Assembly (NCBI GenBank): GCA_001709035.1
Contig: LVKA01000015.1
Location: 1 to 64,000 of the forward strand
Length of the DNA stretch: 64,000 nucleotides
Direction of reading: 5' to 3'
From: Candidatus Thiodiazotropha endoloripes
Lineage (GTDB): Bacteria; Pseudomonadota; Gammaproteobacteria; Chromatiales; Chromatiaceae
The position numbers were made by a program, and so were the translations under genes. This document shows, piece by piece, positions 5,631-34,109 of the stretch; position 1 is the stretch's first letter, and the number at the start of each line of letters is the position of its first letter. The notes under the pieces were generated by a model. It was not told the DNA's origin and did not search any database. It saw nothing but the letters and a program-made list of their open reading frames with translations.

Positions 5631-5647
5631 TCCTGGAGGAGAGATCG

Positions 5648-14070: not shown

Positions 14071-15099
14071 ATGGATGAATTATCCAAAGCATGGCTAATC
14101 GGCGGAGGGTTGGTCATAGGCACATTCTTCGGTCTTTTGGCACAAAGATCAGGATTTTGTGCAGTCTCTGCGATCAGTAACTCTAAATTGATGGGGGACT
14201 ACCGGCATTTGGATGGCTACATTGCCGCTATCATTGTTGCACTATCCGGAACGCTTATTCTCGAATTGATCGGTTTGGTCGATATTGGCACATCTCCCTA
14301 CAGACGTCCGACCTTTAACTGGGCTGGTGCACTGTTTGGCGGACTCATATTCGGTATCGGTGCTATGTTGTCCGGTGGATGCGCGTCAAGAACTTTGGTT
14401 CGGTCTGCAGAAGGCAATATCGGTGCAATTGTCACCCTATTGGCATTCGCACTCTCCGGTATGGCCACATTGATTGGTATATTGGACCCAGCCAGGGCGT
14501 GGGTTGCCTCATCAGCCATTGATCTTGAACCAGGTGATGCCTCACTCTCCAAATTGATAGGCCAACCTCACTATCTGCTGCCAGTTATGGTAGTAGTGAC
14601 AGGCATAATCTTTCTTTACATTCACTTAAGAGAACAAAACAACTGGTCCTATATCTTTTATGGTAGCGGTATCGGCCTATGTGTCGTTATCAGTTGGTGG
14701 ATAACCGGCGTACTGGGCCAGGATGATTTTTTTGAATTGCCTCCCACCTCCATCGCGGTCGCTGGCCCCCTTTCTCGTGGTGCGGTTTATTTATCGACAG
14801 GTGAGGTTACAGGCAACCATTTCGCCTTTTATCTACTACCGGGAATGATCTTAGGCGCTTTCGTCAGCGCACTCATATCCGGCAGATTTCATTGGGTACC
14901 CCCTGCAGGTTCAATGGTAGGCAGCTATCTGTTGGGCGGCATCCTGATGGGTGTTGGGGCGGTATTTGCCGGTGGCTGTAATATTGGACAGGGACTCTCC
15001 GGCCTCTCCACGTTTTCGATCACATCACTCATAGCGGTTGGCGCTATTTTGTCCGGAATGTCATTGACGTTGACATGGATAAATAAAAGAACCAAATAG
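14071..15099 (+). CDS. YeeE/YedE-family sulfur transporter
   Basis: A 342-residue integral membrane protein with about nine or ten hydrophobic segments. It has the three conserved cysteines of the YeeE/TsuA thiosulfate transporter family: SGFC (Cys30), SGGCASR (Cys104) and AGGCNIGQG (Cys303). In TsuA these lie along the thiosulfate path and are needed for uptake. Its place between soxYZ and dsrAB suggests it moves sulfur (thiosulfate or a sulfane-sulfur carrier product) from the periplasmic Sox carrier to the cytoplasmic Dsr machinery. That transfer is an inference. Family membership is well supported; the exact substrate is not. Confidence 0.85.
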   Translation: MDELSKAWLIGGGLVIGTFFGLLAQRSGFCAVSAISNSKLMGDYRHLDGYIAAIIVALSGTLILELIGLVDIGTSPYRRPTFNWAGALFGGLIFGIGAMLSGGCASRTLVRSAEGNIGAIVTLLAFALSGMATLIGILDPARAWVASSAIDLEPGDASLSKLIGQPHYLLPVMVVVTGIIFLYIHLREQNNWSYIFYGSGIGLCVVISWWITGVLGQDDFFELPPTSIAVAGPLSRGAVYLSTGEVTGNHFAFYLLPGMILGAFVSALISGRFHWVPPAGSMVGSYLLGGILMGVGAVFAGGCNIGQGLSGLSTFSITSLIAVGAILSGMSLTLTWINKRTK

Positions 15100-15285
15100 A
15101 CCGGATGGGAGTTCACAGCCTATTTTTCGCTACAGAGATTGAGTCTGTCTATTCCAAAGGTGATATTAACCTACCATTTTTATCAACTATTATTGGAGGA
15201 TACAGACGACAATCATGTTCGGTTCATATGGCACAGCATCAGCCGGGATTGATGGGTTGAGCAGCCAGGAACAGGAGGCATTTTG

Positions 15286-16548
15286 ATGAAGTCTCACCCG
15301 ACACCTATGCTCGATCAGCTGGAAAGTGGCGAATGGCCTAGCTTTGTCACAGGCATCAAAAGACTGCGTGACACTCATCCCGATCGCCGTATTAGAGAAA
15401 CAACCAATGACCTGCTGGGTCAATTGGAGCACTCCTATGAGACCCGAAAGGGGTACTGGAAAGGGGGTACGGTCAGTGTTTTTGGTTATGGGGGCGGGAT
15501 CATTCCCCGCTTCTCAAGCGTTGGCGATCTGTTTCCACAATCGAAGGAGTTTCATACACTGCGCGTGCAACCCCCTGCGGGAAACTACTACACCACAGAT
15601 ATCCTGCGGCAGCTGGCAAACAGCTGGGAGAAGTGGGGCTCCGGCCTGGTCACCTTTCACGGTCAGACGGGCAACATCATGTTCATCGGAGCGAACACAA
15701 AAAACACCCAACACTTCTTCAATGAGATCAATGAATACGGTTTTGACTTAGGCGGCGCCGGACCCTGTGTGCGTACTGCTCAGTCCTGTGTGGGATCCGG
15801 TCGTTGTGAGCAATCCTGTACCAACGAACATGAGATCCATCGTCGCCTGGTCAACAACTTCCTCGACGAGATGCACCGGCCGGCGCTACCGTATAAATTC
15901 AAGTTCAAGGTTTCCGGCTGCCCAAACGACTGTATGAATGCCATCGAGCGTGCCGATTTTGCAGTAATCGGTACCTGGCGAGACGATATGCAGGTGGATC
16001 AGACCGAAGTGAAACAGTATCTCTCTGATAAAGGTCGACAATACATCATCGACCACGTCATCAGCCGCTGCCCCACCCACGCACTCTCACTGACCGATGA
16101 GGATAGGCTGGAGGTGGAGAATGCCGACTGTGTTCGCTGTATGCACTGTCTCAATGTGATGCCCAAGGCGCTCTCCCCCGGTAAGGATAGAGGTGTCAGC
16201 CTGCTGATCGGTGGTAAACGAACCCTGAAGATCGGGGATCGTTTCGGCACCATGATGATTCCGTTCATGAAGCTGGAGAATGAGGCGGATTATGAAAAAC
16301 TGGTGGCGCTGGCAGAGGAGACCATCGATTTCTTTGCTGAAAATGCCCTCGAGCATGAGCGCATCGGAGAGATGATCGAACGTATCGGTCTGGTGAACTT
16401 CATCGAAGCACTGAATATTGATGTGGATCCCAATATGATCGTGCACCCACGGGAGAACTCCTATGTGCGCACCGATCAGTGGGAGGAAGAGGCCCAGAAG
16501 TGGTTTGAACACCATCCCCATGACGACCCGTCAGCGGATGTTGCTTGA
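15286..16548 (+). CDS. dsrA: Dissimilatory sulfite reductase alpha subunit (oxidative type)
   Basis: A 420-residue DsrA. Start is the ATG at 15286, with AGGAGG seven bases upstream. It shows the DsrA siroheme/[4Fe-4S] motifs (CVRTAQSCVGSGRCEQSC and KVSGCPNDC) and a ferredoxin domain (SRCPTHAL, CVRCMHCLN, about 265-295). With DsrB it forms the siroheme enzyme that in sulfur oxidisers runs in reverse, turning reduced sulfur bound to DsrC into sulfite. The opening HPTPMLDQLESG and overall sequence resemble gammaproteobacterial (Allochromatium-like) oxidative DsrA. The spacing to dsrB is 11 bases. Unusually, dsrEFHCMK do not follow. Confidence 0.93.
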   Translation: MKSHPTPMLDQLESGEWPSFVTGIKRLRDTHPDRRIRETTNDLLGQLEHSYETRKGYWKGGTVSVFGYGGGIIPRFSSVGDLFPQSKEFHTLRVQPPAGNYYTTDILRQLANSWEKWGSGLVTFHGQTGNIMFIGANTKNTQHFFNEINEYGFDLGGAGPCVRTAQSCVGSGRCEQSCTNEHEIHRRLVNNFLDEMHRPALPYKFKFKVSGCPNDCMNAIERADFAVIGTWRDDMQVDQTEVKQYLSDKGRQYIIDHVISRCPTHALSLTDEDRLEVENADCVRCMHCLNVMPKALSPGKDRGVSLLIGGKRTLKIGDRFGTMMIPFMKLENEADYEKLVALAEETIDFFAENALEHERIGEMIERIGLVNFIEALNIDVDPNMIVHPRENSYVRTDQWEEEAQKWFEHHPHDDPSADVA

Positions 16549-16559
16549 GGAGAGACCTG

Positions 16560-17636
16560 ATGGCGAATGCAGAGCGTAGAGTCCCGATTGAAAGCGGCTG
16601 TCCCGACGGTATTCAGTATATGCATCCTGTGATGCGCGAAAATTTTGGTCACTGGCGATACCACGAAGATCCCAGGCCGGGGGTCCTTCGTCATGTGGCT
16701 GACAGTGGCGATGATATCTGGACCGTGAGAGCGGGTACCCAACGTATTCTGGATCTCTTTACATTGCGTAAACTGTGTGAAATCGGTGATCAGTTCGCGG
16801 ATGGTTACGTACGTTTCACAATACGCAGCAATATCGAGTTTATGCTCTCCGACGGTGATCGTGTGGCCGCATTGGTCGAAGCCTTGGAGTCGAACGGATT
16901 TTTGGTTGGTGGTACGCGAAATTCTGTCGCCGCCATTTCCCATACCCAGGGTTGGCTGCACTGCGATATACCCGCCACGGATGCCTCAGGTGTGGTCAAA
17001 TCGATGATGGACCAATTGGTGGATGAATTTCGCCAATGGAACATGCCCAACCGGGTGCACATCACCACCTCCTGCTGCCAAATCAACTGCGGCGGCCAAG
17101 GGGATATCGCGATCAATATTCAACACACCAAACCCCCAAAAATCGACCATACCCAGGTGGCAAACGTTTGTGAGCGGCCATCAGTGGTGGCGCGCTGCCC
17201 GGTAGCGGCGATACGACCTGCGATGGTCAATGGCAAACCCTCCCTGGAGGTCGATGAGAGGAAATGTGTCTGTTGCGGCGCCTGCTATCCACCCTGCCCG
17301 CCGATGCAGATCAACGATCCGGAACACTCAAAGCTGGCGGTATGGGTTGGCGGCAATCACTCGAATGCCCGGACTCGGCCCACATTCCAAAAACTGGTGG
17401 CGGCCGGTATCCCCAACAATCCACCACGCTGGCCGGAGGCTACAGCCATTGTCAAACGGATTCTCAAGGCTTATCAGACCCATGCCAAAGACTGGGAGCG
17501 GATCAATGATTGGGTGGAGCGTATCGGTTGGCCCCGATTCTTCGAATTGACCGGGCTGCCATTCACCAAATTCCATATCGATAACTGGAGAGGGCAACAA
17601 AAGAGTCTGAATGCTTCCACACATCTTAGGTTCTGA
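16560..17636 (+). CDS. dsrB: Dissimilatory sulfite reductase beta subunit
   Basis: A 358-residue DsrB. The ATG at 16560 follows GAGGAGAG and gives the family's usual beginning (ESGCPDGIQYMHPVM), so it is preferred to an in-frame TTG at 16545. It contains the siroheme-cluster cysteines (GWLHC and TTSCCQINCGG) and a ferredoxin domain (CVCCGACYPPCPP). It pairs with DsrA as an alpha2beta2 enzyme of cytoplasmic sulfur oxidation. The gene is followed at once by a copy of the dispersed palindrome rather than by dsrE, so the pair is either a second copy or a split part of the dsr locus. Confidence 0.93.
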   Translation: MANAERRVPIESGCPDGIQYMHPVMRENFGHWRYHEDPRPGVLRHVADSGDDIWTVRAGTQRILDLFTLRKLCEIGDQFADGYVRFTIRSNIEFMLSDGDRVAALVEALESNGFLVGGTRNSVAAISHTQGWLHCDIPATDASGVVKSMMDQLVDEFRQWNMPNRVHITTSCCQINCGGQGDIAINIQHTKPPKIDHTQVANVCERPSVVARCPVAAIRPAMVNGKPSLEVDERKCVCCGACYPPCPPMQINDPEHSKLAVWVGGNHSNARTRPTFQKLVAAGIPNNPPRWPEATAIVKRILKAYQTHAKDWERINDWVERIGWPRFFELTGLPFTKFHIDNWRGQQKSLNASTHLRF

Positions 17637-21659: not shown

Positions 21660-23393
21660 TCAGATGGTGGCCGGCTTACTGCGCTTGAGCCAGATTCCGC
21701 TTAGAAACCAGCTATACGCCCAGGTACCAAAAAACACCAGTACAAAGGTCACCGCGATATCTGTTGCACTTCCATCCAGGGAGAACGCAGGCACGTATCC
21801 GAAAATAAACGGCGCCAGATAAAGGAACTTGGCGAACTTGAATGCGATCCATGCAGTTGCCCACATATTCGCCTTGGCGATTGTCGCACCGGCAAAGGCT
21901 GCAATGCAGACCGGAGGTGTGATATTTGAGTCCTGCGACAGCCAGTAAACAATCATATGGGCAGCAAGGGGGTTAATTCCCAGTTCAGTTAACGCCGGCA
22001 CCGCAACCACCGCAGTGATCAGATAAGCAGCGGTGACAGGCACCCCCATACCGAGAATCAACGAAGCCAGGGCAATAAACAATATCGTGAGCCACAGCTT
22101 TCCGTCTGCGAGTTCGATAACGATATCTGCAAAGGTCAATATCAGGCCGCTATAGGTCAGTACACCAATGATGATGCCGATCACGCCAACCGTTGCACCA
22201 ATTTTTAGGCTGGACTCTGCGCCGGCTCGGGAGGCATGCACGAATCCTTTAAGATCAATACGGGTTTTTTTGCGAAACCAGCTGACAACAATACAGGTAA
22301 CAATGCCGAGAATTGCCGAGTAGCCCGGTGAATAGCCTGCCAGCATGAAAATGGTAATCATGACCAGCGGTAGCACATAGAACCACTCCTTTTTCAGGAT
22401 ATCCATTGCTTTTTCCTTACTGGGCTCACCGACAATGTTTTCTTTTTTAGCCTCGTAATGCACCATCATAAAAACGCTAAAGAAATACATCAGCGCAGGG
22501 AATATCGCCACCAGCATGATCTGCGAATAGGGCAAACCGGTCAGTTCCGCCATGATGAACCCGCCCGCACCCATAATCGGTGGCATGAACATTCCACCCA
22601 GGGATGCAGCCGGTTCTATGCCACCTGCCACATGTGGGCGAAACCCTGCTTTTTTCATCATCGGAATGGTAAATGCACCGGTGGAAACTGTATTGGCAAT
22701 GGCACTACCCGAAATCGATCCGAACAAACCGGATGCAATCACCGATACCTTGCCAGGGCCACCAATCTTGTGACCTACCGCTGCCAGCGGGAAGTCAATA
22801 AAAAATCTCTGCGCACCACTTTTCTCCAGGAATGCGCCAAAAATCACAAACAGGATGATATAGGTCGCCAGCACGTTGGCCATGATGCCGAAGACACCAT
22901 CGCTCTTGTAGAAAATGCTGACACAGAGCAGTGGAAAGGTGTCTCCCGCATGCTGAATCACTTCCGGTATCCATTCGGAATCGCCATAGACCCCGAACAG
23001 CAACATAATGGTACCTATTACCACAAACACCGTGCCTACCACACGACGGGCAACTTCGATACCAACCAGCACACCCGCTACTGCAATCCATGTATCCAGT
23101 TCGTTCTCTGCACCAGCACGATAGTTGATGGCCTCAAAATTCAGTATCCAATAGCCTAGTGTAACTATGGCTACCACCATCAGTAAGTAGTCCCAAATGC
23201 GCCCATAGATACCGCCCCAATTGGAGCGGTAAAGCAGAAAAACCAGGATGTAGGTGATAATAACGTAAACACCACGATGAAACTGTGTGGCTGCTGGCTC
23301 CAGTACTGCGGAATAGGAATAAAACAGCACCAGACCGATGGCCATGGCATCGAATGCCCATTGCTCAAACTTGTTCAGTTTACTAAACAGCAT
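21660..23393 (-). CDS. TRAP transporter, fused small and large permease (TAXI type)
   Basis: A 577-residue membrane protein with many hydrophobic segments. An N-terminal part of about four helices (DctQ-like) is fused to a DctM-like domain with the typical GGMFMPPIMGAGGFIMAELTG and ASLILGMGVPVTAAYLI segments. Such fusions go with TAXI-type binding proteins, and one is encoded upstream in the same direction. The transporter uses a sodium or proton gradient to import organic acids or amino acids. The substrate cannot be read from sequence. Gene order SBP, permease, uspA is consistent with one operon. Confidence 0.87.
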   Translation of the reverse strand: MLFSKLNKFEQWAFDAMAIGLVLFYSYSAVLEPAATQFHRGVYVIITYILVFLLYRSNWGGIYGRIWDYLLMVVAIVTLGYWILNFEAINYRAGAENELDTWIAVAGVLVGIEVARRVVGTVFVVIGTIMLLFGVYGDSEWIPEVIQHAGDTFPLLCVSIFYKSDGVFGIMANVLATYIILFVIFGAFLEKSGAQRFFIDFPLAAVGHKIGGPGKVSVIASGLFGSISGSAIANTVSTGAFTIPMMKKAGFRPHVAGGIEPAASLGGMFMPPIMGAGGFIMAELTGLPYSQIMLVAIFPALMYFFSVFMMVHYEAKKENIVGEPSKEKAMDILKKEWFYVLPLVMITIFMLAGYSPGYSAILGIVTCIVVSWFRKKTRIDLKGFVHASRAGAESSLKIGATVGVIGIIIGVLTYSGLILTFADIVIELADGKLWLTILFIALASLILGMGVPVTAAYLITAVVAVPALTELGINPLAAHMIVYWLSQDSNITPPVCIAAFAGATIAKANMWATAWIAFKFAKFLYLAPFIFGYVPAFSLDGSATDIAVTFVLVFFGTWAYSWFLSGIWLKRSKPATI

Positions 23394-23443
23394 GCCCCAC
23401 CCTCATTCTTTGTGATTATTTTGTTTTGAAACCTGCCCCTGTT

Positions 23444-23473
23444 AAAAAAGGGCGGGAGTAATTCCCGCCCTTT
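23444..23473 (-). terminator. Hairpin between binding-protein and permease genes
   Basis: On the - strand: AAAGGGCGGGA, loop ATTAC, TCCCGCCCTTT, then TTT. It lies 19 bases after the TAXI protein stop and before the permease start, so it probably acts as a partial terminator or mRNA stabiliser that keeps the binding protein in excess. Confidence 0.8.
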
Positions 23474-23491
23474 GGCTAGGTCGAGTATGGC

Positions 23492-24460
23492 TTACATCAT
23501 GCCTTTTTCTTTCCAGAACTTGATCGCACCCGGATGCCAAGGAGTCACCACACCCTGAGTACCTGTCTCCAGACTCATGTTTTTGAAGGTTTTTTTCTGC
23601 TGCTTCATGTGCGCCAGACCTTCATCAGTATAGATGGCCGAAAGCATCTTATAAACCGTATCTTCTGAAACGTCTTTGTTCGCCACCCACAGTGCAGAGT
23701 CCTGGAATGATGGGGAGTCGTAATCAACGCCACGATAAGTACCGGCAGGCACTGAGAGTTGGGAGAAGTAGGGGTACTGGTCAAAGAAACCACTCTCCTT
23801 GGCATCCTTACCCAGGTCGATCAACTCAATGTCATTGGTCTGCGCCGCCATGATCACAGCACCACTTGGGAATGCGGTAAACAGCCAGAACGCATCCAGC
23901 TGGTTGTTACCGAATGCCGATGCGGCATCGTTGTAACCCATTGCATTACGCTCAACCTTATCCCAAACACCCATATGGGTGAAGAACAGCTCACAGTTGG
24001 CGAAAGCACCAGAACCTGCATTACCGACACCGACCTTCTTTCCAGCCAGGTCCTTGGTACTCTTGATACCGGAGCCCTTGCGAACAACCAACTGTGCAGG
24101 TGCACCATACAACCAGGCTACCGCCATGACATTTTCGTACTTCTTGGTATCGTTCTTCATCTGGCCGTTACGCCCCAGATAGACATGACCGGAATAGACC
24201 GTTCCCATCTGCGCTTTGCCGGAATTCACCTTACGCAGGTTTTCCACTGAACCGGCAGATGACTGAGCGCGAACACGAAAATCCTTCGAACTCTTGATAG
24301 GCTTGTAGACCTGAATAGCGTTGGCCACAACCTGGAAGGTACCGCCTGCCGGGCCGCCACTGAAGACGACGCGCTCTTTGGCCGCCTGCGCTGACATCGG
24401 TATTGATAAAGCAGCTGTCAGTAAGGCTACACTACTGGTTAAAAAGACTCTTCTTTTCAT
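23492..24460 (-). CDS. TAXI-family TRAP solute-binding protein
   Basis: A 322-residue periplasmic protein with a signal peptide ending SAQA (about residue 26). It shows TAXI-family features: VVFSGGPAGGTFQVVANAI near the start, LVVRKGSGIKSTKDLAGKKVGVGNAGSGAFANCELFF (about 125-160) and GVVTPWHPGAIKFWKEKG at the end. It captures the solute for the fused permease. A GGTGG ribosome binding site precedes the ATG. Confidence 0.88.
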   Translation of the reverse strand: MKRRVFLTSSVALLTAALSIPMSAQAAKERVVFSGGPAGGTFQVVANAIQVYKPIKSSKDFRVRAQSSAGSVENLRKVNSGKAQMGTVYSGHVYLGRNGQMKNDTKKYENVMAVAWLYGAPAQLVVRKGSGIKSTKDLAGKKVGVGNAGSGAFANCELFFTHMGVWDKVERNAMGYNDAASAFGNNQLDAFWLFTAFPSGAVIMAAQTNDIELIDLGKDAKESGFFDQYPYFSQLSVPAGTYRGVDYDSPSFQDSALWVANKDVSEDTVYKMLSAIYTDEGLAHMKQQKKTFKNMSLETGTQGVVTPWHPGAIKFWKEKGMM

Positions 24461-24964: not shown

Positions 24965-26287
24965 TCAGTCGATTAACTGCTGTGCAAGGAGTTGTACCGG
25001 GTGCATCACCTGGCCTTTAAAACCGGCATCGCGAGCCCCGCTCGCAAGGTGCAGTGCGCAAGTGAGGTTGGTTGTAACCAGTATATCCGCGCCACCCAAT
25101 GTCAGAGCGGCGACCTTCTCATCTCTCATGGGATTGGCCAGTTCAGGCTGAGTAACCATCTTTGTGCCCCCGGCACCGCAACAGATCTGATTGTCGGTAA
25201 GGGATGTGATCTTAAGACCGGGGATCTTTGCCAATAATCGATAAGCCAGAGTTTGGTTTTTTAGGGCGTTGCGTTGACTGCAAGGTTCATGCACGACAAC
25301 CTGCGTCTGCAGTGGATTGAATTGTAGTTCATGGAAAAGATCACTCTGATCTAAATAGTCCAGAACATCGAGGAATGATGGTATTTCATCCGGAATTTTT
25401 TCCCAACACCCCATGAGTGCGGGATAATCATTCAGAAAGGCACCACAACCGCTTGAGTTGTAGATGACAGTACTGGAGTTGGTAAAGGCGGTCAGATTCT
25501 GTTCCAAACAGACTTTTGCCTGACTCATCTCTCCATTATGGGCATAGGCAGCACCACAACAAGTCTGATTTTCAACCACAGTCACGTCACAGCCAATCCG
25601 GGACAGTAATGTAGTGGTCGCATTGTGAGTGCGTGTATCGAATAGACTGGCTATACAACCGGTGAACAGGATTACTTCCCTCAAGGGCGGATCCACCCGA
25701 GTTTGTGCAAAACCGACAATCGGCTGTGGGTCGTGAGGCGTCGGGAGTAACACCAATAATGGCTGAATGCTTTTCAGAAACGGTAGCTTCGCCAACAGCG
25801 CAAAGAGTCGTGGTAATCCACTGCGTTGATAGATGCGGATCGAATGATTCAATCGTCGCCGGGTTGTCTCGCCTCCCATGGCCAATGCAAGTATCCATGA
25901 AACCAGCAAGCTCTTGCTAGGCTTGAAATGATCACCCTCAAGCGCCTGCCGGTAGAGCTCAGCAAAAGCCATTTTTGACGGGCATAAGGTTTCACAGGCT
26001 TGACACAGCGTACAGGAAGCCAAAGCGGCCTGCTCATTCATATCAAGTGCCTCGCCTTTTCGTACTGCTTTCTCCAACAAGCGGATTCGGCCACGAGGGC
26101 CATAGTTTTCTTCTGGCCTGATGCGATATGTTGGGCAACTGCCAACGCAGACGCCGCAACTTAAGCACTCTTGAGTATCAGGGATATAAGGGCCGAGAGA
26201 TTGGTTATTATCGAGCGATAAACCGTCAAAACCATAATCGGTCGAAAAAGATTCGAATCTAAAATCATTCAAATGACTGCACCTCAA
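24965..26287 (-). CDS. GlcF-like iron-sulfur protein (glycolate/lactate oxidase type)
   Basis: A 440-residue cytoplasmic protein. An N-terminal 2x[4Fe-4S] domain (CLSCGVCVGSCPTYR and CTLCQACETLCPS, about 40-105) is followed by two CCG domains (FTGCIAS...QTCCGAAYAHNG and HEPCSQR...QICCGAGG). That layout is GlcF or a related (Fe-S) subunit of FAD-linked glycolate/lactate dehydrogenases. No FAD-binding partner (GlcD/GlcE) is in the window. The frame opens at TTG 26287; a nearby TTG at 26272 has GAGG at better spacing, so the exact start is uncertain. Confidence 0.8.
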   Translation of the reverse strand: MRCSHLNDFRFESFSTDYGFDGLSLDNNQSLGPYIPDTQECLSCGVCVGSCPTYRIRPEENYGPRGRIRLLEKAVRKGEALDMNEQAALASCTLCQACETLCPSKMAFAELYRQALEGDHFKPSKSLLVSWILALAMGGETTRRRLNHSIRIYQRSGLPRLFALLAKLPFLKSIQPLLVLLPTPHDPQPIVGFAQTRVDPPLREVILFTGCIASLFDTRTHNATTTLLSRIGCDVTVVENQTCCGAAYAHNGEMSQAKVCLEQNLTAFTNSSTVIYNSSGCGAFLNDYPALMGCWEKIPDEIPSFLDVLDYLDQSDLFHELQFNPLQTQVVVHEPCSQRNALKNQTLAYRLLAKIPGLKITSLTDNQICCGAGGTKMVTQPELANPMRDEKVAALTLGGADILVTTNLTCALHLASGARDAGFKGQVMHPVQLLAQQLID

Positions 26288-26789: not shown

Positions 26790-28157
26790 TCAGGAACCGC
26801 CGGGCGCATAGACCAGTTGATCGGTATTGCGAACCAGTAATTCGCGGGCTCTGAGGCGCAAGAAGCGCCGTGCGGCTGCAAAGGTCCATAGCAGAATGGC
26901 GATCATCAATCCCGAGTATACGAAGGCCCAGGTCTGCTCTGAGGCGCCAAATGTATCGGATGCCCACTCCGCGAAGGTGATGTACTCCGTCAGGCCTTCG
27001 CCGAATACCACCTCGTCGATGGTTTCTTGATACAGGGTGTAAGGCAGGTAGCCCAGGTAGAAGCCCGGCAGAGCTGCCAGCGCGGTCGAGTAACCCAGTC
27101 CCAAGCGGGCATAGGTTCGTACCTCACAGCCGATCATCAGCACCGCACCCATTGCGAGCAACGGGCCACCCAGGATATGCCCCCAGTACAGGCCTTCATC
27201 GCCAGAGGCGTTGGGTATCGTGCCCTCGCCCCAGATCCAGGAGTAAACAATAAACAGGTTCAGGGTGACGATGGATACCATCAAACCCTGTAACGGTAAC
27301 ATGCCGCGGAACATGCGATAGGTACAATCAGGCACTCCATTCTTGCGATAAAAATCGTGGCTGGTGAAGGCGGATTCGGGCGCCATGGCTGAACACTCAG
27401 TGCCAAAACCGGTCTTCGCAATGCCGAATCCCAGCAACAGGCCAGGCGCAGCCAGCCAGGCCAACTCACCCCAACCGATCTGGGATATGGAGCCTGCGAT
27501 ATCACTTGTCAGGCCGTAATAGAGCGGAACCAGAAGGAATCCCAGCAAGAGACAGGTCAGACCAAGATGGAGAGGATTTTTCCAGGGTTTATAGCCCGGT
27601 TTGTAACCCGGATTGTGATTATGCTCTGCGCCATCCTGCTCGCAGGATACACACCAGGTTTCCTGGTGCCTGAGATAGCCCCCCTTACCCAATCCGGTGA
27701 CAAGCTTGAAGGCAAGGAAAGCAAATGGAATTCCGCTCAGCAGGACAACCCAGGAGGCTATGCTCATGGATGGGATTCCACCGAGAAAATGGTGGGTGGT
27801 GCAGCCGCCAGCGATGCGAGTGCCAAACGAGAAGAGGAATCCGCCGATAAACGCCAACGCCAACATCCCTCCATCGTAATGCACCCAGTCGCGGTGGTCC
27901 TTCTCTGCGATACCTGCCATGCGTGCGCCGACAATCGCAAACACGATGAACCAATAGATACCTGGTTCGTAGACACGAGCCACCCAGTCGACGCCAAACA
28001 GATTGACCTCAGCAACCGCAAACATCTGCGCCAGACCGGTTGTGACTACGATGAACATGTCGTAGTGGTAGTAGAAGATAATCTCGGCCAGGCCGACGAA
28101 CAGGCCACCGAGCCAGAACGGCCACTGTTTTTGCCAGAGTGTTTTTAGTAACTGCAT
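26790..28157 (-). CDS. YeeE/YedE-family transporter, long form
   Basis: A 455-residue membrane protein with about ten hydrophobic segments and the family cysteines in RIAGGCTTHHFLGG, GFGTECSAMAP and MIGCEVRTYARLG. A soluble loop at about 165-200 holds CVSCEQDGAEHNHN, a possible extra metal or sulfur-binding patch. Related long YeeE proteins are often encoded next to rhodanese or TusA-like carriers and are thought to move sulfur in some form. It follows the rhodanese gene by 81 bases and shares its sigma-54 promoter. It is clearly distinct from the shorter YeeE protein next to soxYZ. Confidence 0.83.
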   Translation of the reverse strand: MQLLKTLWQKQWPFWLGGLFVGLAEIIFYYHYDMFIVVTTGLAQMFAVAEVNLFGVDWVARVYEPGIYWFIVFAIVGARMAGIAEKDHRDWVHYDGGMLALAFIGGFLFSFGTRIAGGCTTHHFLGGIPSMSIASWVVLLSGIPFAFLAFKLVTGLGKGGYLRHQETWCVSCEQDGAEHNHNPGYKPGYKPWKNPLHLGLTCLLLGFLLVPLYYGLTSDIAGSISQIGWGELAWLAAPGLLLGFGIAKTGFGTECSAMAPESAFTSHDFYRKNGVPDCTYRMFRGMLPLQGLMVSIVTLNLFIVYSWIWGEGTIPNASGDEGLYWGHILGGPLLAMGAVLMIGCEVRTYARLGLGYSTALAALPGFYLGYLPYTLYQETIDEVVFGEGLTEYITFAEWASDTFGASEQTWAFVYSGLMIAILLWTFAAARRFLRLRARELLVRNTDQLVYAPGGS

Positions 28158-28238: not shown

Positions 28239-29228
28239 TTAAATCGTGTCGACGTTCTTCTTCAGCTTGGTCCACTCATGCATCGAGCCGTCATATTGCT
28301 TGACGTTCTTGTTACCCAACAGTTCGTGCATGATGAACCAGTGGCCGGTACTGAGATGACCGGAATCACAGTAAGTGATGGTCTGGGCATTGGCATCCAT
28401 GCCCTTGGCTTTCATCAATGCAGCGATTTTCTTCGCCGGCAGGAAAGTCGCGGCTTTTTCACCGTTCACCAACAGTTCATGTGGAAAAACCTTTGAGCTA
28501 GGGATGTGGCCCGGGGCATAGACGTACTTCTTCTTGTAGGTAGTGCCGAGAAAGAAGTCCTCGGTACGGCCATCCATGATTTGAGTACCATTACCAATAG
28601 CGTGTTCGACTTCTGCAGTAGTGGCCATAATTGAAGTGTTGGGCGAGCCGGCAGTCCAGTTACCCATTGAGGGCTTAGATTTGTCCCGACTCAACGCATG
28701 ACCGGCAGCATCCCAGGCTGCTGTGCCACCATCCAGTACCGCGACATTCTCATGCCCCCAATATTTCATCTGCCAGTACAGACGAGTGGCGAAGGTGACA
28801 TCCTTGGACTGTGCACCTTTCATGGTGATGACTACAGCGGAGTTTTTGTTAACGCCGTGCTTTTGCATCAGTGACTCCATTTCTGATTGAGTCGGCACCA
28901 GTTTGATTAGCGGTATCCCATCCACGGTGCGTTTGGCACGCACTTCTTTCCAGGGTACCAGTGCCGCGCCCGGTATATGGCCGGAGACCTTAATGCCAGC
29001 GCCTTTCTTGGCGCCGCAGCCTTGCATGCCGGCGATACTTGCTTTCTTTTTGGCCTTGGCGGTAAAACTCTTTTTGTCTTTGCGCACATCGAGTATGACC
29101 ACTTCGCTCTTGTGCTTGACCAGCCAGTCGACATCGACCAACGGGCCGGGTACTTGCAACGCTTGTACCGGCAAGGCAAGCAGTGACAGGGCGAGGCCCG
29201 CGCAGGTCAGCCATTGAATTGGCTTCAT
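28239..29228 (-). CDS. Periplasmic two-domain rhodanese (sulfurtransferase)
   Basis: A 329-residue protein. The start at 29228 has GGAGG six bases upstream and opens a signal peptide (residues 1-24, ending VQA), so the longer frame to 29291 is rejected. The first rhodanese domain (about 30-180) lacks a catalytic Cys at the active-site loop (ITMKGAQSKD). The second (about 205-325) has TYCDSGHLSTGHW with Cys287. This inactive/active arrangement is normal for thiosulfate sulfurtransferases. It probably transfers sulfane sulfur in the periplasm, and with the YeeE partner may feed sulfur into the cell. An extra stretch KKKASIAGMQGCGAKKG (about 60-76) adds another Cys. Confidence 0.87.
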   Translation of the reverse strand: MKPIQWLTCAGLALSLLALPVQALQVPGPLVDVDWLVKHKSEVVILDVRKDKKSFTAKAKKKASIAGMQGCGAKKGAGIKVSGHIPGAALVPWKEVRAKRTVDGIPLIKLVPTQSEMESLMQKHGVNKNSAVVITMKGAQSKDVTFATRLYWQMKYWGHENVAVLDGGTAAWDAAGHALSRDKSKPSMGNWTAGSPNTSIMATTAEVEHAIGNGTQIMDGRTEDFFLGTTYKKKYVYAPGHIPSSKVFPHELLVNGEKAATFLPAKKIAALMKAKGMDANAQTITYCDSGHLSTGHWFIMHELLGNKNVKQYDGSMHEWTKLKKNVDTI

Positions 29229-29293
29229 AATGATCCTCCAACATTGGTGTAGTGATTTGTTATGTGCAACTTGCATGCACTGGAAATCCACAG

Positions 29294-29309
29294 TGCAAGC
29301 AGAGTGCCA
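29294..29309 (-). promoter_or_regulatory. Sigma-54 (RpoN) promoter of the rhodanese-yeeE operon
   Basis: On the - strand the sequence reads TGGCACTCTGCTTGCA. It matches the sigma-54 consensus TGGCAC-N5-TTGCA at every position, with the essential GG and GC ten bases apart. It lies 66 bases upstream of the rhodanese start and just after the gene of an NtrC-type activator. An enhancer site is expected between about 29320 and 29410 but could not be assigned. Confidence 0.88.
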
Positions 29310-29412
29310 ACGTGAAGTATCAATGACTTAGGGTGGTTGTGGCGAGGTCAGGTCGTGGCGAATTGCAACGGTGGGGCATTTTGCCATGGTGCTTCTGACC
29401 ACCGGACTCTGT

Positions 29413-30771
29413 TCAGCTACGTAACTTGCGGTGCAGGGTCGAAACATCGATCCCAAGCCGCCGCGCAGCCTCGCTTTTGTTGCCGTTGCAACGTTCAATC
29501 ATGTGCTGTATCCAGCGAGCCTCCACCTGTTGTAGGCTGGCATCGGCATCCCAGTTATGGCTTGGGGCGGATGCCGGGTTTGTACCCTCCAGGCATTCCG
29601 GTGGTAAATGCTGTTTTTCGATCAGACTGTCATCGGCGAGCACCACGGCACGATGCATGACATTTTCCAGTTGTCGTACGTTGCCCGGCCAGCTATAGCG
29701 TTGCAACAGTGCTTCGCATTCATCGCTGAAGCTTGGCGCTGCGCAGCCAAGTTGACGTGCGGTTGTCAGTACAAATCGCTCGGCGAGCGGGATGATGTCG
29801 TCACGCCGCTCCCGCAATGGAGGCAGTTGCAGTGGAAATACATTGAGCCGATACCAAAGATCTTCACGGAAACGTCCCTGCTTGACCAAGTCACCCAGCT
29901 CCTGATTGCTGGCAATGACCAAGCGCACATCAACCTGAATCGACTGGCTGCCGCCCACACGCCTCAGGCTGCGCTCCTGTACGAACTCCAACAGACGAGT
30001 CTGTACCGCGGCACTGGCACTGTTGATTTCGTCAAGGAACAGAGTGCCGGTGTGGGCCAATTCGAGTATGCCGCGCTTACGCGAATCGGCACCGGTGAAG
30101 GCGCCTCGTTCATGGCCGAACAGTTCGCTTTCGATCACTGATTCCGCCAGTGCGCCGCAGTTGACACTGAACCAGGGGCCGTTTCTTCTGGCGCTGGTGC
30201 TATGGATGGCCTGTGCCAAGACACCTTTGCCGGTACCGGTTTCGCCGCTGAGAAGTACCGGTGTATCCAGATCAGCGATCTTGTCGATCAGCGACATCAC
30301 ATCCTGCATGGCGCGGCTGTTGACCACAGGAGTAGCCTTACCATGTTCGAGCATGGCAAGACGTTGACTGAGGGACTCCATGCGCCGCTCTCTGGCAAGC
30401 TGACGCACAATACGCTTCAACGCCAGGCGGACATCTTCGTTGTCGAAAGGTTTGGTAATCAGATCCATGGCGCCGGCACGAAATGCGCGTTGCACATCAG
30501 GCACGGTGGCGAAACCGGTAATGATGACAACCGGCAACCCAGGACATATTTCCGCGCTCTTTTCAATCAACTCCAGTCCATTCATGCCTGGCATCTGGAT
30601 ATCAGCAAGCAGTGCATCTGGTGGTTCCCGGGTCAGCGCAGACAGTGCGGTGTGACCATCGGCGAAATGATCAACCACAAAACCACATTTTCTTGCCAGT
30701 TCAGCTAACAGACCAGCCATTGCTGCATCGTCTTCAGCGATATATAGGTGGTGAGGGCTGGGTGTGGTCAT
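29413..30771 (-). CDS. Sigma-54-dependent response regulator, NtrC/AioR type
   Basis: A 452-residue protein. Receiver domain 7-120 with phosphoacceptor Asp57 (LLADIQMPG) and KPF switch Lys; AAA+ domain about 145-380 with Walker A GETGTGKG (176-183), GAFTGA (223-228, the sigma-54 contact) and Walker B GTLFLDEI; Fis-type helix-turn-helix at the end (NKSEAARRLGIDVSTLHRKL). It overlaps the kinase gene by four bases. Its closest known architecture is the AioR/ArrR/NtrC group. Because a consensus sigma-54 promoter lies immediately downstream, the likely target is the rhodanese-yeeE operon. Confidence 0.92.
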   Translation of the reverse strand: MTTPSPHHLYIAEDDAAMAGLLAELARKCGFVVDHFADGHTALSALTREPPDALLADIQMPGMNGLELIEKSAEICPGLPVVIITGFATVPDVQRAFRAGAMDLITKPFDNEDVRLALKRIVRQLARERRMESLSQRLAMLEHGKATPVVNSRAMQDVMSLIDKIADLDTPVLLSGETGTGKGVLAQAIHSTSARRNGPWFSVNCGALAESVIESELFGHERGAFTGADSRKRGILELAHTGTLFLDEINSASAAVQTRLLEFVQERSLRRVGGSQSIQVDVRLVIASNQELGDLVKQGRFREDLWYRLNVFPLQLPPLRERRDDIIPLAERFVLTTARQLGCAAPSFSDECEALLQRYSWPGNVRQLENVMHRAVVLADDSLIEKQHLPPECLEGTNPASAPSHNWDADASLQQVEARWIQHMIERCNGNKSEAARRLGIDVSTLHRKLRS

Positions 30772-32171
30772 GTAGTCTCTTCGCCTTGGCTTGCGTAATG
30801 GTCCGGCAGAATCAGATTAAAACATGCACCGTTATTGAGGTCTTGTGTAACCATACTCAACTCGGCACCCATCTGAATGGCAATCTGACGGCTCATATAC
30901 AGTCCTAGGCCGGTGCCCTCTCCCGGTGGCTTGCTGGTGACAAAGGGATCGAACAGCGTCGATTGCAGGTTGCTCGGAATTCCTGGCCCATCATCTTCGA
31001 CGCGCAGATGGACGAGCCCGGATTCACTGGTGCGAATAACCGATAGGTTGACATGGATTGCGCCGGCCTGCGCAGCATTGGCCAGCAGGTTGAACAGTAT
31101 TTGTTCCAGGGCGCCGGGATCACCAGTCACAATACAACGTTCCCCTTCAGGTTCGACAGGGGGATTGATTTTCACGTCGTATCCCTTGAGTATCGGCGCA
31201 ATCAATTCTACCGCACCATTTACTTGTTGATGGAGATCGAAGGCCTGCTGCTCGATCTCTGGCAGGCGTACGGCAGTCAACAGGTTGGTCACCTTGGCTG
31301 CGCAGGATTCCGCTTGTTCGATAATCAGCCGGGCCTGATGCTGTTGGCTATCATCGCCACTCTCTTCCAGCAATTGCGCATAACCCTTAATCGACCCCAG
31401 CGGTGTATTGAGGTTGTGTGCCAGCCCGGCGGCCATCTGACCGACGACGGCCAAGCGCTGGTCACGGTTCAGGCGTTCGGTAACGCTACGCACCATGTGC
31501 TCAGCCTGGTCGCGTTTGGCGAGATGATCCTTGATCTCGCCGCACAATCGTTGGAAGGTCTGTGCCAGGCGTTGTAACTCCTCCGGCAGTCCGGTGGGCT
31601 CAGGGCATTGCTCGGCATGCAGCGGGTTGATGGACTGGGCCAGTTGTTGCACCGGCAGGATGAGTTCGCTGTTGATAAACTTACGCAGCGCAAGGAACAG
31701 AATTGCCAATACAAGCAACAGCAGGCCGAGGCCGCTTAGCCCGACGCGAAAAAGGGCCTCCACCATGCCCGCTCGGTCGACAGATAAAAAGACGCGGCCG
31801 ATCTCAGAATTACCGATCGAAAGGCCTTGTTCGACATGAATCAGCGAGGGATTGTCGAGTTCGGGCGAGACACCCGCCTCGGCCAGTAGTTCGCCATCGT
31901 TGCGTCGAATGAGAACCGAGACGATGCCGGGTTCACGGGCCAACTCGGTGGTGTAACGCTCCAGTGTCGCATAGTCATATACCAGAATGGCATCCACCGA
32001 GAACAGTGCCAGCTGCCGGGCCTGCGATACGGCGCGCTCGGTTAGGTGGGTCTCGAATAGCTTAGAGAGCGCAATATACCCACCACCAGCGAGCACCAGA
32101 CTCAGCATGACCATGGCCAGCCCGACACCTGCGGTCAGACGCTCTGTCAATGACCAGTTGCGCTTTACCAT
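30768..32171 (-). CDS. Membrane sensor histidine kinase (AioS/ArrS-like position)
   Basis: A 467-residue kinase. First membrane helix about 14-34, a small periplasmic domain of about 100 residues, second helix about 143-164, a HAMP-like linker, then the HisKA domain with H252 in GLAHNLNTPLGSI, and an HATPase domain with N-box ILFNLLANAAQA, VEDDGPGIP and GEGTGLGLYMS. All catalytic boxes are present. The gene overlaps both neighbours by a few bases. The periplasmic domain is the expected contact for the PhnD-like lipoprotein encoded just upstream, as AioX works with AioS. Confidence 0.9.
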   Translation of the reverse strand: MVKRNWSLTERLTAGVGLAMVMLSLVLAGGGYIALSKLFETHLTERAVSQARQLALFSVDAILVYDYATLERYTTELAREPGIVSVLIRRNDGELLAEAGVSPELDNPSLIHVEQGLSIGNSEIGRVFLSVDRAGMVEALFRVGLSGLGLLLLVLAILFLALRKFINSELILPVQQLAQSINPLHAEQCPEPTGLPEELQRLAQTFQRLCGEIKDHLAKRDQAEHMVRSVTERLNRDQRLAVVGQMAAGLAHNLNTPLGSIKGYAQLLEESGDDSQQHQARLIIEQAESCAAKVTNLLTAVRLPEIEQQAFDLHQQVNGAVELIAPILKGYDVKINPPVEPEGERCIVTGDPGALEQILFNLLANAAQAGAIHVNLSVIRTSESGLVHLRVEDDGPGIPSNLQSTLFDPFVTSKPPGEGTGLGLYMSRQIAIQMGAELSMVTQDLNNGACFNLILPDHYASQGEETT

Positions 32172-33112
32172 TGTGGTAGTTCAGCGGGGGTGGATTCCAC
32201 TGTGGCAATCACACGACGGGCGCGCTGAAAGCGCGACATCTCGGGTTTGGTGAATCGTGTAGCCCCGCCCAGCGCCTGCATGGCTTGGGCAAAACCAGCT
32301 GGGTCTTCCGTGGGGGATATCAGTGCACTGCGCAACGCGATGACATGCTTTTGCTCAAGTCCAGGGCGGGCGACGATCAGATGTGGTGGCAATGGTGGGG
32401 AGGTGGAGAGAACTCGCAGACCGGGGCTGCGTTCGTTGTATTGCCGTGCGACATCTTCGTTGATTCCACCAGCATCAAAGTCACCATGCAATACCGATAG
32501 CGCCACGCGTTCATGTCGTCCGAGGAACGCGTAGTCCCTTAAATCTTCAATTGATAGGCCGGCGTTGCCGAGCATCACACGTGGTACGTAATGACTGCTG
32601 AAGGAGTGTGGAGCACCAAATGCCAGTGTGCGGTTGCTCAAATCGGCTAGTTCAGCGATCGGGGCGTCCTCACGCACGACAATCACGCTGTGGTAACTGG
32701 CTCTGCCCTGCTTGACCTCGGCGGCAAGCGGAATCAGCTTGTTTTGCGAATGTTTCAGATAGTGGTCCTGAGCCCGCAGAAAAGGGGTTGGCCCCATGTA
32801 AGCCAGATCAGCCTGCCCGCTTGAGATGCGCTGAATCTGATCGATGTAGGAACGCGCAATCACCAGTTCCACCGGCAGATTCAGCTGTTCACCGAGGTAG
32901 CTTGCCAGCGGGGAGAATTTTGCCAGCAATCTACTGGGATTGTCATAGGGATGGATGATAAGTGACAGTGCTGGACGAGGCGGCTGCTGCGGTTTCGACG
33001 GGTCGGGTGACTGAGCGGTGTGTTTCTGGCAGGCCAAGAGTAACAGCGTGAGCACAAGCAGGATGAGCCGGCGCAGCACTGTTTTACTGGCAGGCGCCAT
33101 CATCCGGTCCAC
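32165..33112 (-). CDS. PhnD-like periplasmic binding lipoprotein, likely co-sensor
   Basis: A 315-residue lipoprotein: lipobox LLLLAC near residue 28, a Pro-rich linker, then a phosphate/phosphonate-type binding domain (PhnD family: LSLIIHPYDNPSRLLAKFSPLASYLGEQLNLPVELV, DLAYMGPTPFLRA, TLAFGAPHSFSSHYVPR). No transport genes are nearby; instead it overlaps a histidine kinase gene. The same X-S-R order is known from AioX-AioS-AioR and ArrX-ArrS-ArrR, where the binding protein is the sensor. After the lipobox Cys there is no other Cys, so As(III) binding through thiolates as in AioX is unlikely. The context suggests an oxyanion, perhaps of sulfur. The ATG at 33112 or one at 33103 could be used. 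Confidence 0.82.
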   Translation of the reverse strand: MDRMMAPASKTVLRRLILLVLTLLLLACQKHTAQSPDPSKPQQPPRPALSLIIHPYDNPSRLLAKFSPLASYLGEQLNLPVELVIARSYIDQIQRISSGQADLAYMGPTPFLRAQDHYLKHSQNKLIPLAAEVKQGRASYHSVIVVREDAPIAELADLSNRTLAFGAPHSFSSHYVPRVMLGNAGLSIEDLRDYAFLGRHERVALSVLHGDFDAGGINEDVARQYNERSPGLRVLSTSPPLPPHLIVARPGLEQKHVIALRSALISPTEDPAGFAQAMQALGGATRFTKPEMSRFQRARRVIATVESTPAELPQW

Positions 33113-34109
33113 AGCGAAGGGAGTAAAGCAGGTAACTTGATTGTCCTGCCACCTGCATTGCCGAGCGGATCATATCCTTTGATTCCTGAGAAACATCGGA
33201 TTCATTCATAGCTTTGAGAATAGCAGGATAGACCCGCTCGTAGTAGTCTGCATCCGGATCCACCCAAATTTCAATGTAGCCAACAGCAGTGTTGTCTGTG
33301 TTGAAATGGATGGTGCGCTGCTCGTGTGGTTGCAGACGGGAATCATGAATCTCAGTCCATCCGCGAGTTTCGTTCCAATCCATCTTACGCTGGACGGTAG
33401 TGATCGGAATTGACTGACCCCTGGCATTTTTCCACTGCACACGAATTCGTGGTGTGATGTAGGTTGGCAAGGCGTGGCCTGCGCCCTGGTTTTGCAGGGT
33501 GATCTCAATCTGCTTTTGGTTACGCAACCCGGAAACGATAAGGCCGGACCGTGTCATTTCCGGATCATGTATACCACGGATGTAATGATTACCCTCCTGC
33601 AGGTGGCAGCTGATGCAGGTGATGCCCTGCCTGGGGTAGAGGCTCTGCCTCCACTCTTCAACTGTGTTTTCCAAGGGCTTGCCGTTAACCAGAATACCAT
33701 TGTCAACAAACTGATGGCAGTAGACACAAGACTCATAAGTGACAGGACTTCTGGTGACTGGGACTTCAGATGGATGAGGACTTGTTAAATGACCATGACA
33801 GGAAAAACAGCTAACCGAACCGCTCCAATTACCCAAGGCCTCTCCGGTTTCAGTGTTAGGGAAATGGCAACTCAGGCAGTCGGCAATTGTCTCCCCATCG
33901 AACAGGGCAAATTGCCCCAGCACACCTGGACTAAGGGCTTTTGCATGCAGGGAATGACGCCATTGATCAATGACCTTTTCATGGCAATCCATGCATTGAC
34001 GGTTAGCAGGGTTAGGGTTATTCGTACTATTTGAGGAAGCCTCTGAATCATGTGCAGATACGAGCAGGATCACTAGCGCAGATGTTGTTACCGCGAGCAA
34101 GTTCAGCAT
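33084..34109 (-). CDS. Pentahaem cytochrome c, first gene of the sensor operon
   Basis: A 341-residue secreted protein with a signal peptide (residues 1-24) and five CXXCH motifs: CMDCH, CLSCH, CFSCH, CVYCH and CISCH, all in the first 175 residues. The last 160 residues form a separate, haem-free domain (about 185-325, with EITLQNQGAGHALPTYITPRIRVQW), similar to the C-terminal beta domain of some cytochrome c554-like proteins. It overlaps the PhnD-like gene by 29 bases, so the two are translated together. In this setting it may sense or carry redox change to the sensor; a plain electron-transfer role is equally possible. Confidence 0.82.
   Translation of the reverse strand: MLNLLAVTTSALVILLVSAHDSEASSNSTNNPNPANRQCMDCHEKVIDQWRHSLHAKALSPGVLGQFALFDGETIADCLSCHFPNTETGEALGNWSGSVSCFSCHGHLTSPHPSEVPVTRSPVTYESCVYCHQFVDNGILVNGKPLENTVEEWRQSLYPRQGITCISCHLQEGNHYIRGIHDPEMTRSGLIVSGLRNQKQIEITLQNQGAGHALPTYITPRIRVQWKNARGQSIPITTVQRKMDWNETRGWTEIHDSRLQPHEQRTIHFNTDNTAVGYIEIWVDPDADYYERVYPAILKAMNESDVSQESKDMIRSAMQVAGQSSYLLYSLRCGPDDGACQ

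Follow-up and report, generated by a model that had tools for sequence, protein, structure and literature searches.

The substrates of rhodaneses and YeeE proteins are sulfane sulfur or thiosulfate; TsuA, for one, transports thiosulfate. A stretch of 64,000 nt from Candidatus Thiodiazotropha endoloripes (contig LVKA01000015.1, positions 1 to 64,000), referred to here as the window, carries a rhodanese-yeeE operon behind the genes of a pentahaem cytochrome, a PhnD/PtxB-type lipoprotein, a histidine kinase and an NtrC-type regulator, all on the minus strand. The locus is proposed, with a probability of about 0.6, to encode a three-component sigma-54 switch that is dedicated to the transfer of sulfur in the periplasm and its import and that most likely responds to thiosulfate. 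Published systems are described below as excerpts of the cited papers present them.

The arsenic three-component systems AioXSR, ArxXSR and ArrXSR (PMC5908839) offer the first comparison. With them the locus shares a separate PhnD-fold binding protein, a kinase and a regulator in that order, and with Aio and Arx also an AtoC/NtrC-type regulator (PMC5908839). A site and an RpoN promoter between regulator and target are likewise common to both (aio locus, TGGCACAACGATTGCA), and in NT-26, too, the AioXSR genes follow the X-S-R order with the target adjacent. In contrast to the arsenic systems, the pocket of the window protein lacks Cys106 and Asp210, its clade is a separate one, the palindrome is different, the target is rhodanese-YeeE instead of a molybdoenzyme, and a cytochrome gene stands in front.

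PhnD-like domains are also presumed to sense thiosulfate in ThsS and tetrathionate in TtrS (PMC5408782). A PhnD-like presumed oxyanion sensor and a two-component system beside sulfur genes are shared with ThsSR and TtrSR; however, their PhnD-like domain is fused to the kinase, whereas the window has a separate lipoprotein gene, and, unlike in the window, ThsR is FixJ-like and the targets of both systems are reductases (PMC5408782). Sigma-54-dependent two-component control of an adjacent sulfur operon through a palindromic upstream activating sequence (UAS) is described for TspS-TspR of Acidithiobacillus (PMC6335251), and the window, too, has a sigma-54 NtrC-type regulator and a palindromic putative UAS beside sulfur genes. 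The TspSR UAS, TGTCCCAAATGGGACA, and its target, the sox-II cluster, differ from the palindrome and target of the window; the excerpt mentions no binding protein (PMC6335251), and the TspR sequence itself was not compared with the window.

Like TsuA and SoxT, the window YeeE belongs to PF04143; both serve sulfur import, and SoxT also signal transduction (PMC11582611). SoxR, encoded beside soxT, is a repressor (PMC11582611), unlike the activator-type regulator of the window, and the window YeeE differs from TsuA and SoxT in its pairing with an apparently periplasmic rhodanese and in scoring far under the TsuA cut-off. The Geobacter extHIJKL cluster resembles the locus in combining a rhodanese with a periplasmic pentahaem cytochrome; its excerpted descriptions name no YeeE, and they give a porin, ExtI, and a neighbouring regulator that is mostly of LysR type (PMC5877670, PMC6148476). 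In contrast to ExtH and ExtKL, both window proteins fall under the NCBIfam cut-offs.

The initial annotation of this DNA had stated that no such sulfur system was described. This was too broad with respect to sigma-54 TspSR control of sox and the PhnD-like kinases of ThsSR and TtrSR, which are published. For the specific combination of a separate binding protein, a kinase and an NtrC regulator controlling rhodanese-YeeE, no description was found by full-text searches aimed at it, judged from listings (for one search, 15 of 649 papers) and excerpts of the open-licence literature, where most subscription papers are absent. New here are the six-gene order recurring across families, with binding protein, kinase, regulator and rhodanese in a third lineage, the 31-bp palindrome, the occurrence of palindrome and sigma-54 promoter before other rhodanese/YeeE genes in two relatives, and a binding protein that differs from the arsenic AioX/ArrX type.

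Gene order, palindrome and promoters in related loci

Four overlapping genes, a promoter, the rhodanese-yeeE operon and a strong terminator had been read from the window beforehand, and every one of these elements was confirmed (Table 1). The overlaps amount to 29 bp between cytochrome and lipoprotein, 7 bp between lipoprotein and kinase, and 4 bp between kinase and regulator. The Fis-type helix-turn-helix (HTH) of the regulator ends in STLHRKL, and this motif was present together with GAFTGA in all eight regulators of the module (binding protein, kinase, regulator). As the start of the rhodanese, the ATG behind GGAGG (29228) was chosen; the list of open reading frames (ORFs) starts it at a GTG at 29291. 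The palindrome at 29356-29386, between regulator and promoter, was absent from the initial annotation.

A search with the binding protein at E 1e-40 in 369 genomes drawn from the class yielded 12 genomes, the window's own included. The surroundings of the other 11, plus those of G026 and G003, were fetched and compared with the window proteins by BLASTP. Loci are labelled L024 (genome G280), L025 (G333), L026 (G159), L028 (G123), L032 (G087) and L029 (G003); L010 is contig JALSUJ010000419.1 of a public metagenome-assembled genome titled Gammaproteobacteria bacterium.

The proposed survey for the same gene order found all six genes, cytochrome-PhnD-kinase-regulator-rhodanese-YeeE, again in G280 and G333, which represent two other families of the class; G280 has one additional small rhodanese between regulator and palindrome. 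L010 shows PhnD-kinase-regulator-rhodanese and then the contig end. Its binding-protein gene is cut by an apparent insertion element, whereas the reading frames of kinase, regulator and rhodanese remain open; a transposase-like ORF (author's reading, no family search) lies at 1674-2510, upstream of the truncated gene. Binding protein, kinase and regulator are consecutive in G159, G113 and G123, and two genes are inserted in G087. No regulator of this kind was found in the fetched stretches of five of the 11 genomes (G272, where the contig ends 960 bp downstream, G114, G266, G162 and G334).

Among 56 genomes (the window's own, those of 21 congeners, 13 others from the family and 21 from the class), only the window's own and G026, a distant match, reached E 1e-40 with the binding protein, and the module is therefore regarded as sporadic and probably acquired. 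A single scan of the genome_contigs set with this protein gave one locus. The search of plasmid proteins returned 675 records for the binding protein, of which all were below 60% identity and none spanned 80% of the query, and no match at E 1e-60 for YeeE. With the G280 binding protein at E 1e-50, only the window's genome was found among 398 genomes phylum-wide, and searches within the family and the order of G280 (5 genomes each) and of G333 (3 genomes) returned only those genomes themselves.

Palindromes of 31 bp were found between regulator and target in L024, L025 and L010 (14, 12 and 12 of 14 positions paired, respectively), with the consensus TTGCA-n3-TGCCAG-n3-CTGGCA-n3-TGCAA. A matrix was trained on these three alone, in both orientations, and applied to the five other module loci, of which the window and L028 stretches had been inspected by eye before its construction. 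In four of the five held-out loci, the top match was located at the predicted place: 19.8 at 29356-29386 in the window (runner-up in 64 kb, 10.0), 32.3 at 594-624 in L026 (runner-up 9.7), 27.4 at 5381-5411 in L028 (runner-up 7.7) and 18.2 at 11822-11852 in L027 (runner-up 9.4), which ends 92 bp past the regulator and has its target outside the sequence. When the same short stretches were subjected to 2000 dinucleotide shuffles each, the score was reached once for L027 and never for the window, L026 or L028. Eleven non-module loci, including the NT-26 AioXSR locus and four sensorless YeeE loci, peaked at 4.3-11.5, compared to 18.2-32.3 in the matching module loci.

Palindromy alone is not rare, as 34 of the 63,969 31-mers in the window have at least 10 of their 14 positions paired. 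A degenerate pattern (at most two mismatches) matched one place in the 4,870,787-bp genome, and its reversed control none; it was composed after the window site was seen, and its uniqueness supports a single target, not discovery. Given this one match, the regulator looks dedicated to the rhodanese-YeeE operon.

The sigma-54 promoter, TGGCACTCTGCTTGCA, matched exactly once in the window, where shuffled sequence gave 0.15 matches on average, and its score was reached by none of 2000 composition shuffles of the 128-bp stretch from palindrome to rhodanese; a chance match was rejected on these grounds. Sites of the -24/-12 type with GG and GC were present between palindrome and target in the window, L024, L025, L010, L026 (both directions) and L028. 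Their scores were reached by 10 (L024), 2 (L025), 1 (L010), 1 (L026, rhodanese side), 0 (L026, YeeE side) and 29 (L028) of 2000 composition shuffles, so the sites of L028 and L024 are weaker taken alone. The distance from palindrome centre to -24 element ranged from 63 to 120 bp across loci, the window having 63 bp. L032 carries TGGCACGTTATTTTCT, without GC at -12.

No site scoring above 6 was found upstream of the sensorless rhodanese operon of G003 or of three YeeE-P460 operons. The former, a rhodanese-YeeE-pentahaem cytochrome operon, occupies the very start of its contig (L029, 550-5785), with a divergent second rhodanese gene at 4661-5785. In L043, L044 and L045 (three genomes, one family), a cytochrome P460 gene, identified by Pfam in L043 and by similar sequence, judged by eye, in the other two, precedes a YeeE of the same subfamily in place of a rhodanese.

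Beyond the window, the targets were as follows. In G159 (L026, L048), a single palindrome lies between two divergent sigma-54 sites, with a rhodanese 44% identical to that of the window in one direction and, in the other, a group of genes among which are that of a short YeeE-family protein, scoring below the cut-offs for TsuA and YedE, and a rhodanese-like gene (author's reading; no NCBIfam match). G123 shows palindrome, sigma-54 site, porin and two-domain rhodanese; its binding protein is preceded by a SoxH-like metallohydrolase, which scores under cut-off. G087 has a palindrome-like site, a porin-like gene, a SoxH-like hydrolase, the kinase, the regulator and an ACR3 arsenite-efflux gene. 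Of the six module loci besides the window whose downstream stretch could be read, five (L010, L024, L025, L026 and L028) have a rhodanese as first or second gene after the palindrome; L032 is the exception. Conserved synteny, the conserved palindrome and the sigma-54 sites of related loci strongly support the wiring proposed in the initial annotation, and the sensor module is very probably connected to the sulfur operon.

Table 1. Features of the locus in the window
Feature	Position	Strand	Evidence
Pentahaem c-type cytochrome, C-terminal beta-sandwich, ExtKL / c552-like	33084..34109	-	five CxxCH; weak ExtKL match
PhnD/PtxB-type periplasmic oxyanion-binding lipoprotein, presumed sensor	32165..33112	-	Phosphonate-bd E 6.5e-60; model pLDDT (predicted local distance difference test) 83.3
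Membrane histidine kinase; N-terminal region looks periplasmic	30768..32171	-	HisKA + HATPase_c; H-box LAHNLNTP; 27% identity to AioS
NtrC-type response regulator (sigma-54 activator)	29413..30771	-	receiver, sigma-54 activation domain, Fis-type HTH; GAFTGA; 35% identity to AioR
Imperfect palindrome, putative UAS, TGGCAAAATGCCCCACCGTTGCAATTCGCCA on minus strand	29356..29386		10/14 positions paired
Sigma-54 -24/-12 promoter TGGCACTCTGCTTGCA	29309-29294	-	full consensus
Two-domain rhodanese, signal-like N-terminus	28239..29228	-	PF00581, two stretches
YeeE/YedE-family (Sulf_transp) membrane transporter	26790..28157	-	PF04143, 68.5 bits (curated cut-off 27)
Intrinsic terminator of rhodanese-YeeE operon	26747-26725	-	10-pair stem, 7 G-C, then TTTTTT

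Effector proteins and proposed mechanism

The window rhodanese has its C-terminal active-site Cys in YCDSGHLST and is probably periplasmic, because its N-terminus is signal-like. Against ExtH (NF040901) it scored 114.2 bits, under the cut-off of 200. Its domain 1 shows a Cys-containing insert, GMQGCGAKKG, and, judged by eye, no Cys at the active-site place; the insert was also seen in L010 and L025, L024 has GVQACGAKGG, and L048 lacks it. This insert may constitute a second sulfur-carrying site.

In YeeE, Cys119, Cys255 and Cys344 were invariant in seven aligned sequences. The score against the TsuA equivalog (NF052577) was 39.8 bits, far under the cut-off of 400, and the match to the solved TsuA structure (6leo) was weak.

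The cytochrome matched ExtKL (NF040886) with 33.4 bits (1.8e-8), under the cut-off of 250. The single PDB match of its predicted model at E <= 0.001 was 5ze8, the pentahaem c552 of Thermochromatium tepidum (6.2e-6); the model is poor, particularly in the haem part (mean pLDDT 61), and the fold match is weak evidence. For the ExtKL-like pentahaem family of cable bacteria, structural homology to T. tepidum c552 is described (PMC11976967). Since a 32%-identical homologue in G003 sits directly behind yeeE with no sensor, the cytochrome was counted with the effectors rather than with the sensor part.

Within the proposed switch, the lipoprotein would bind a small periplasmic oxyanion, most likely thiosulfate and less likely sulfite or tetrathionate, and would present it to the membrane kinase. 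The kinase, judging from the domains, would phosphorylate the NtrC-type regulator, which would bind the single 31-bp palindrome centred 63 bp upstream of the -24 element and drive RpoN-dependent transcription of rhodanese-yeeE; both the putative site and the predicted promoter derive from sequence and conservation. The gene families suggest that the rhodanese would take periplasmic sulfane sulfur and pass sulfur to YeeE for import. The pentahaem cytochrome may act as electron partner of this sulfur chemistry, consistent with its gene family and the place of its homologue behind yeeE in a congener.

Ligand of the binding protein and rival readings

The nearest solved relatives of the window binding protein were PtxB (2.4e-26), ArrX (8.1e-15) and AioX (9.9e-9; 27% identity), and its predicted model matched the same PDB set, PtxB and ArrX best. 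At the seven AioX ligand positions Tyr88, Cys106, Tyr131, Ser161, Ser163, His192 and Asp210 (PMC5908839, Badilla et al.), the window protein reads Y-G-Y-S-S-H-N compared to Y-C-Y-S-S-H-D in AioX. The five residues kept, Tyr88, Tyr131, Ser161, Ser163 and His192, are all found in PtxB as well. The Cys106 position is Gly in all seven readable module proteins (window, L024-L028, L032; L010 is truncated there), and Asp210 is replaced in all eight, by Asn in the window and L028, Arg in L010 and L024-L027, and Thr in L032. Deviations from the shared pocket occur in L027 at Tyr131 and Ser163 and in L028 at His192. A C-terminal CxC just before the final PW was observed in L026 and L027, and was absent in the window, L024, L025 and the L010 fragment.

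In a midpoint-rooted tree with one AioX and one ArrX (a piece), and with long branches flagged, AioX and ArrX formed one clade (100/99) and the eight module rows a separate one (99/98), in which the window, L010, L024 and L025 grouped together (98/97). Membership in the arsenic AioX family was rejected, with pocket Cys and Asp replaced and a separate clade. Judged from the sequences, the binding protein is not of the AioX/ArrX type. The label AioXSR-like, used in the initial annotation, was thus borne out for layout and promoter logic, including the same order in NT-26, and not for family membership. AioX, ArxX and ArrX are described as not binding thiosulfate or tetrathionate (PMC5908839). 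The absence of the arsenic residues fits another ligand, without proving which, and the chance that the signal is thiosulfate or a near relative is put at about even.

Stated in full, the sulfur reading is that a third binding-protein/kinase/NtrC branch, apart from the arsenic branch and sporadic across several families of one class, would sense a periplasmic inorganic sulfur oxyanion and switch rhodanese and YeeE import via its own palindrome and sigma-54, with an ExtKL-like pentahaem cytochrome as redox partner; this is held to be slightly better than even. It is favoured by the soxB and dsrA genes of the genome, by the PhnD-like presumed sensors in ThsS and TtrS, and by the missing Cys and Asp that are the mark of arsenic sensors. 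A number of observations weigh against it. The Gly at the Cys106 position also occurs in PtxB and in all six non-module PhnD proteins, and AioX and ArrX, with the same pocket residues, differ in specificity (PMC5908839), so that the pocket does not fix the ligand. Close YeeE proteins were found in six other searched genomes (G003, G280, G333, G150, G265 and G363), of which only G280 and G333 have the module; the set in G003 is rhodanese-YeeE-cytochrome, and in G150, G265 and G363 YeeE stands with a P460-like gene, in each case with neither sensor nor palindrome. The effector genes thus occur apart from the sensor. With respect to the palindrome, the highest score among 20 shuffles of all 64 kb was 18.2, near the 19.8 of the window, and L032 was missed by the plain matrix scan, its best match lying elsewhere (16.9 at 15396); when a spacer of 4 was allowed post hoc, the expected place before the porin gene ranked first (20.0 at 9117).

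Further observations favour the main rival, in which the same switch would answer an oxyanion of a metalloid, namely arsenite/arsenate, thioarsenate, selenite or tellurite, and rhodanese, YeeE and cytochrome would together handle or detoxify it. Besides the gene layout, which is that of AioXSR, these are the ACR3 gene that immediately follows the regulator in L032, ArsP_1/SaoE-like permeases in L025 and L026, low-molecular-weight phosphatase (ArsC-like) genes near L026 and L028, the C-terminal CxC of the L026 and L027 binding proteins, and the resemblance of rhodanese and cytochrome to ExtH and ExtKL, whose Geobacter cluster is tied to selenite/tellurite reduction (PMC5877670). However, Cys106 is Gly in 7/7 readable proteins and Asp210 is Asn, Arg or Thr in 8/8, the window, L024 and L025 proteins have no CxC, and in the window, L010, L024, L025, L026 and L028 a rhodanese is among the targets of the palindrome, while a molybdoenzyme or an ars operon is not. 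A metalloid signal is considered unlikely, while ranking ahead of the other alternatives.

That the cytochrome is the true sensor partner, reporting periplasmic redox state to the kinase, would agree with its place as first gene of the overlapping sensor operon in the window, L024 and L025. It is improbable in view of the G003 homologue, which lies behind yeeE with no such kinase in the 16 kb fetched, and of L026, L027 and L028, where no multihaem cytochrome gene adjoins the binding protein. Slightly more doubtful still is a phosphorus oxyanion (phosphite or phosphonate) as ligand, as in PtxB-type relatives. PtxB is the best PDB match by sequence and fold and likewise has Gly at the AioX Cys106 position, but phosphite and thiosulfate or sulfite are close in shape, so that fold similarity does not discriminate, and no phosphorus gene was recognised among the neighbours annotated or read by eye, not every neighbour having been searched. 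Least credible is an ordinary AioXSR/ArxXSR arsenic sensor with the sulfur operon as a chance neighbour: gene order and promoter position do match aioXSR-aioBA, with identities of 27% (AioX), 27% (AioS) and 35% (AioR), but the missing pocket Cys and Asp, the separate clade, a palindrome for which the aio locus showed no counterpart (matrix scores of 9.7 at most) and the rhodanese synteny kept across families all argue against it.

Genomic surroundings and significance

Genes scoring over cut-off in the genome were soxB (886 bits) and two copies of dsrA. One dsrA lies in the window at 15283-16548, in a segment (14071-17636) where dsrA and dsrB (600 and 528 bits, both over cut-off) come immediately after the gene of a second, TsuA-like YeeE. 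The other is located at C7:915751-916953 with a probable dsrB adjoining, and the genome seems to carry two dissimilatory sulfite reductase sets. At 3066-7086, the A and B subunits of a molybdoenzyme of the dimethyl sulfoxide/selenate family and a TorD-like chaperone were observed, all under the NCBIfam cut-offs. In lucinid symbionts, dmsAB, YeeE/D and dsrAB are described near a soxY variant (PMC11237559), and the left part of the window resembles these dmsAB-YeeE-dsrAB islands. A GlcF-like Fe-S protein is encoded at 24965-26287, just past the terminator of the YeeE operon, and a TRAP fused permease with a TAXI binding protein at 21660-24460. Desulfurivibrio alkaliphilus transcribes and/or upregulates a set of genes during sulfide oxidation, those of YeeE and a rhodanese among them (PMC12545173).

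Bacterial sensing of external sulfur compounds and sulfur import have been called poorly understood (PMC11582611). The circuit that the locus offers is complete and testable: its presumed sensor is soluble and open to purification, its putative operator is defined, and a sigma-54 promoter leads into a target operon of compact size. The binding protein could also serve as a genetically encoded sensor of sulfur oxyanions. If the sulfur reading is true, a three-component plan of the arsenic type would serve sulfur, and a YeeE transporter would be linked to a rhodanese and a pentahaem cytochrome.

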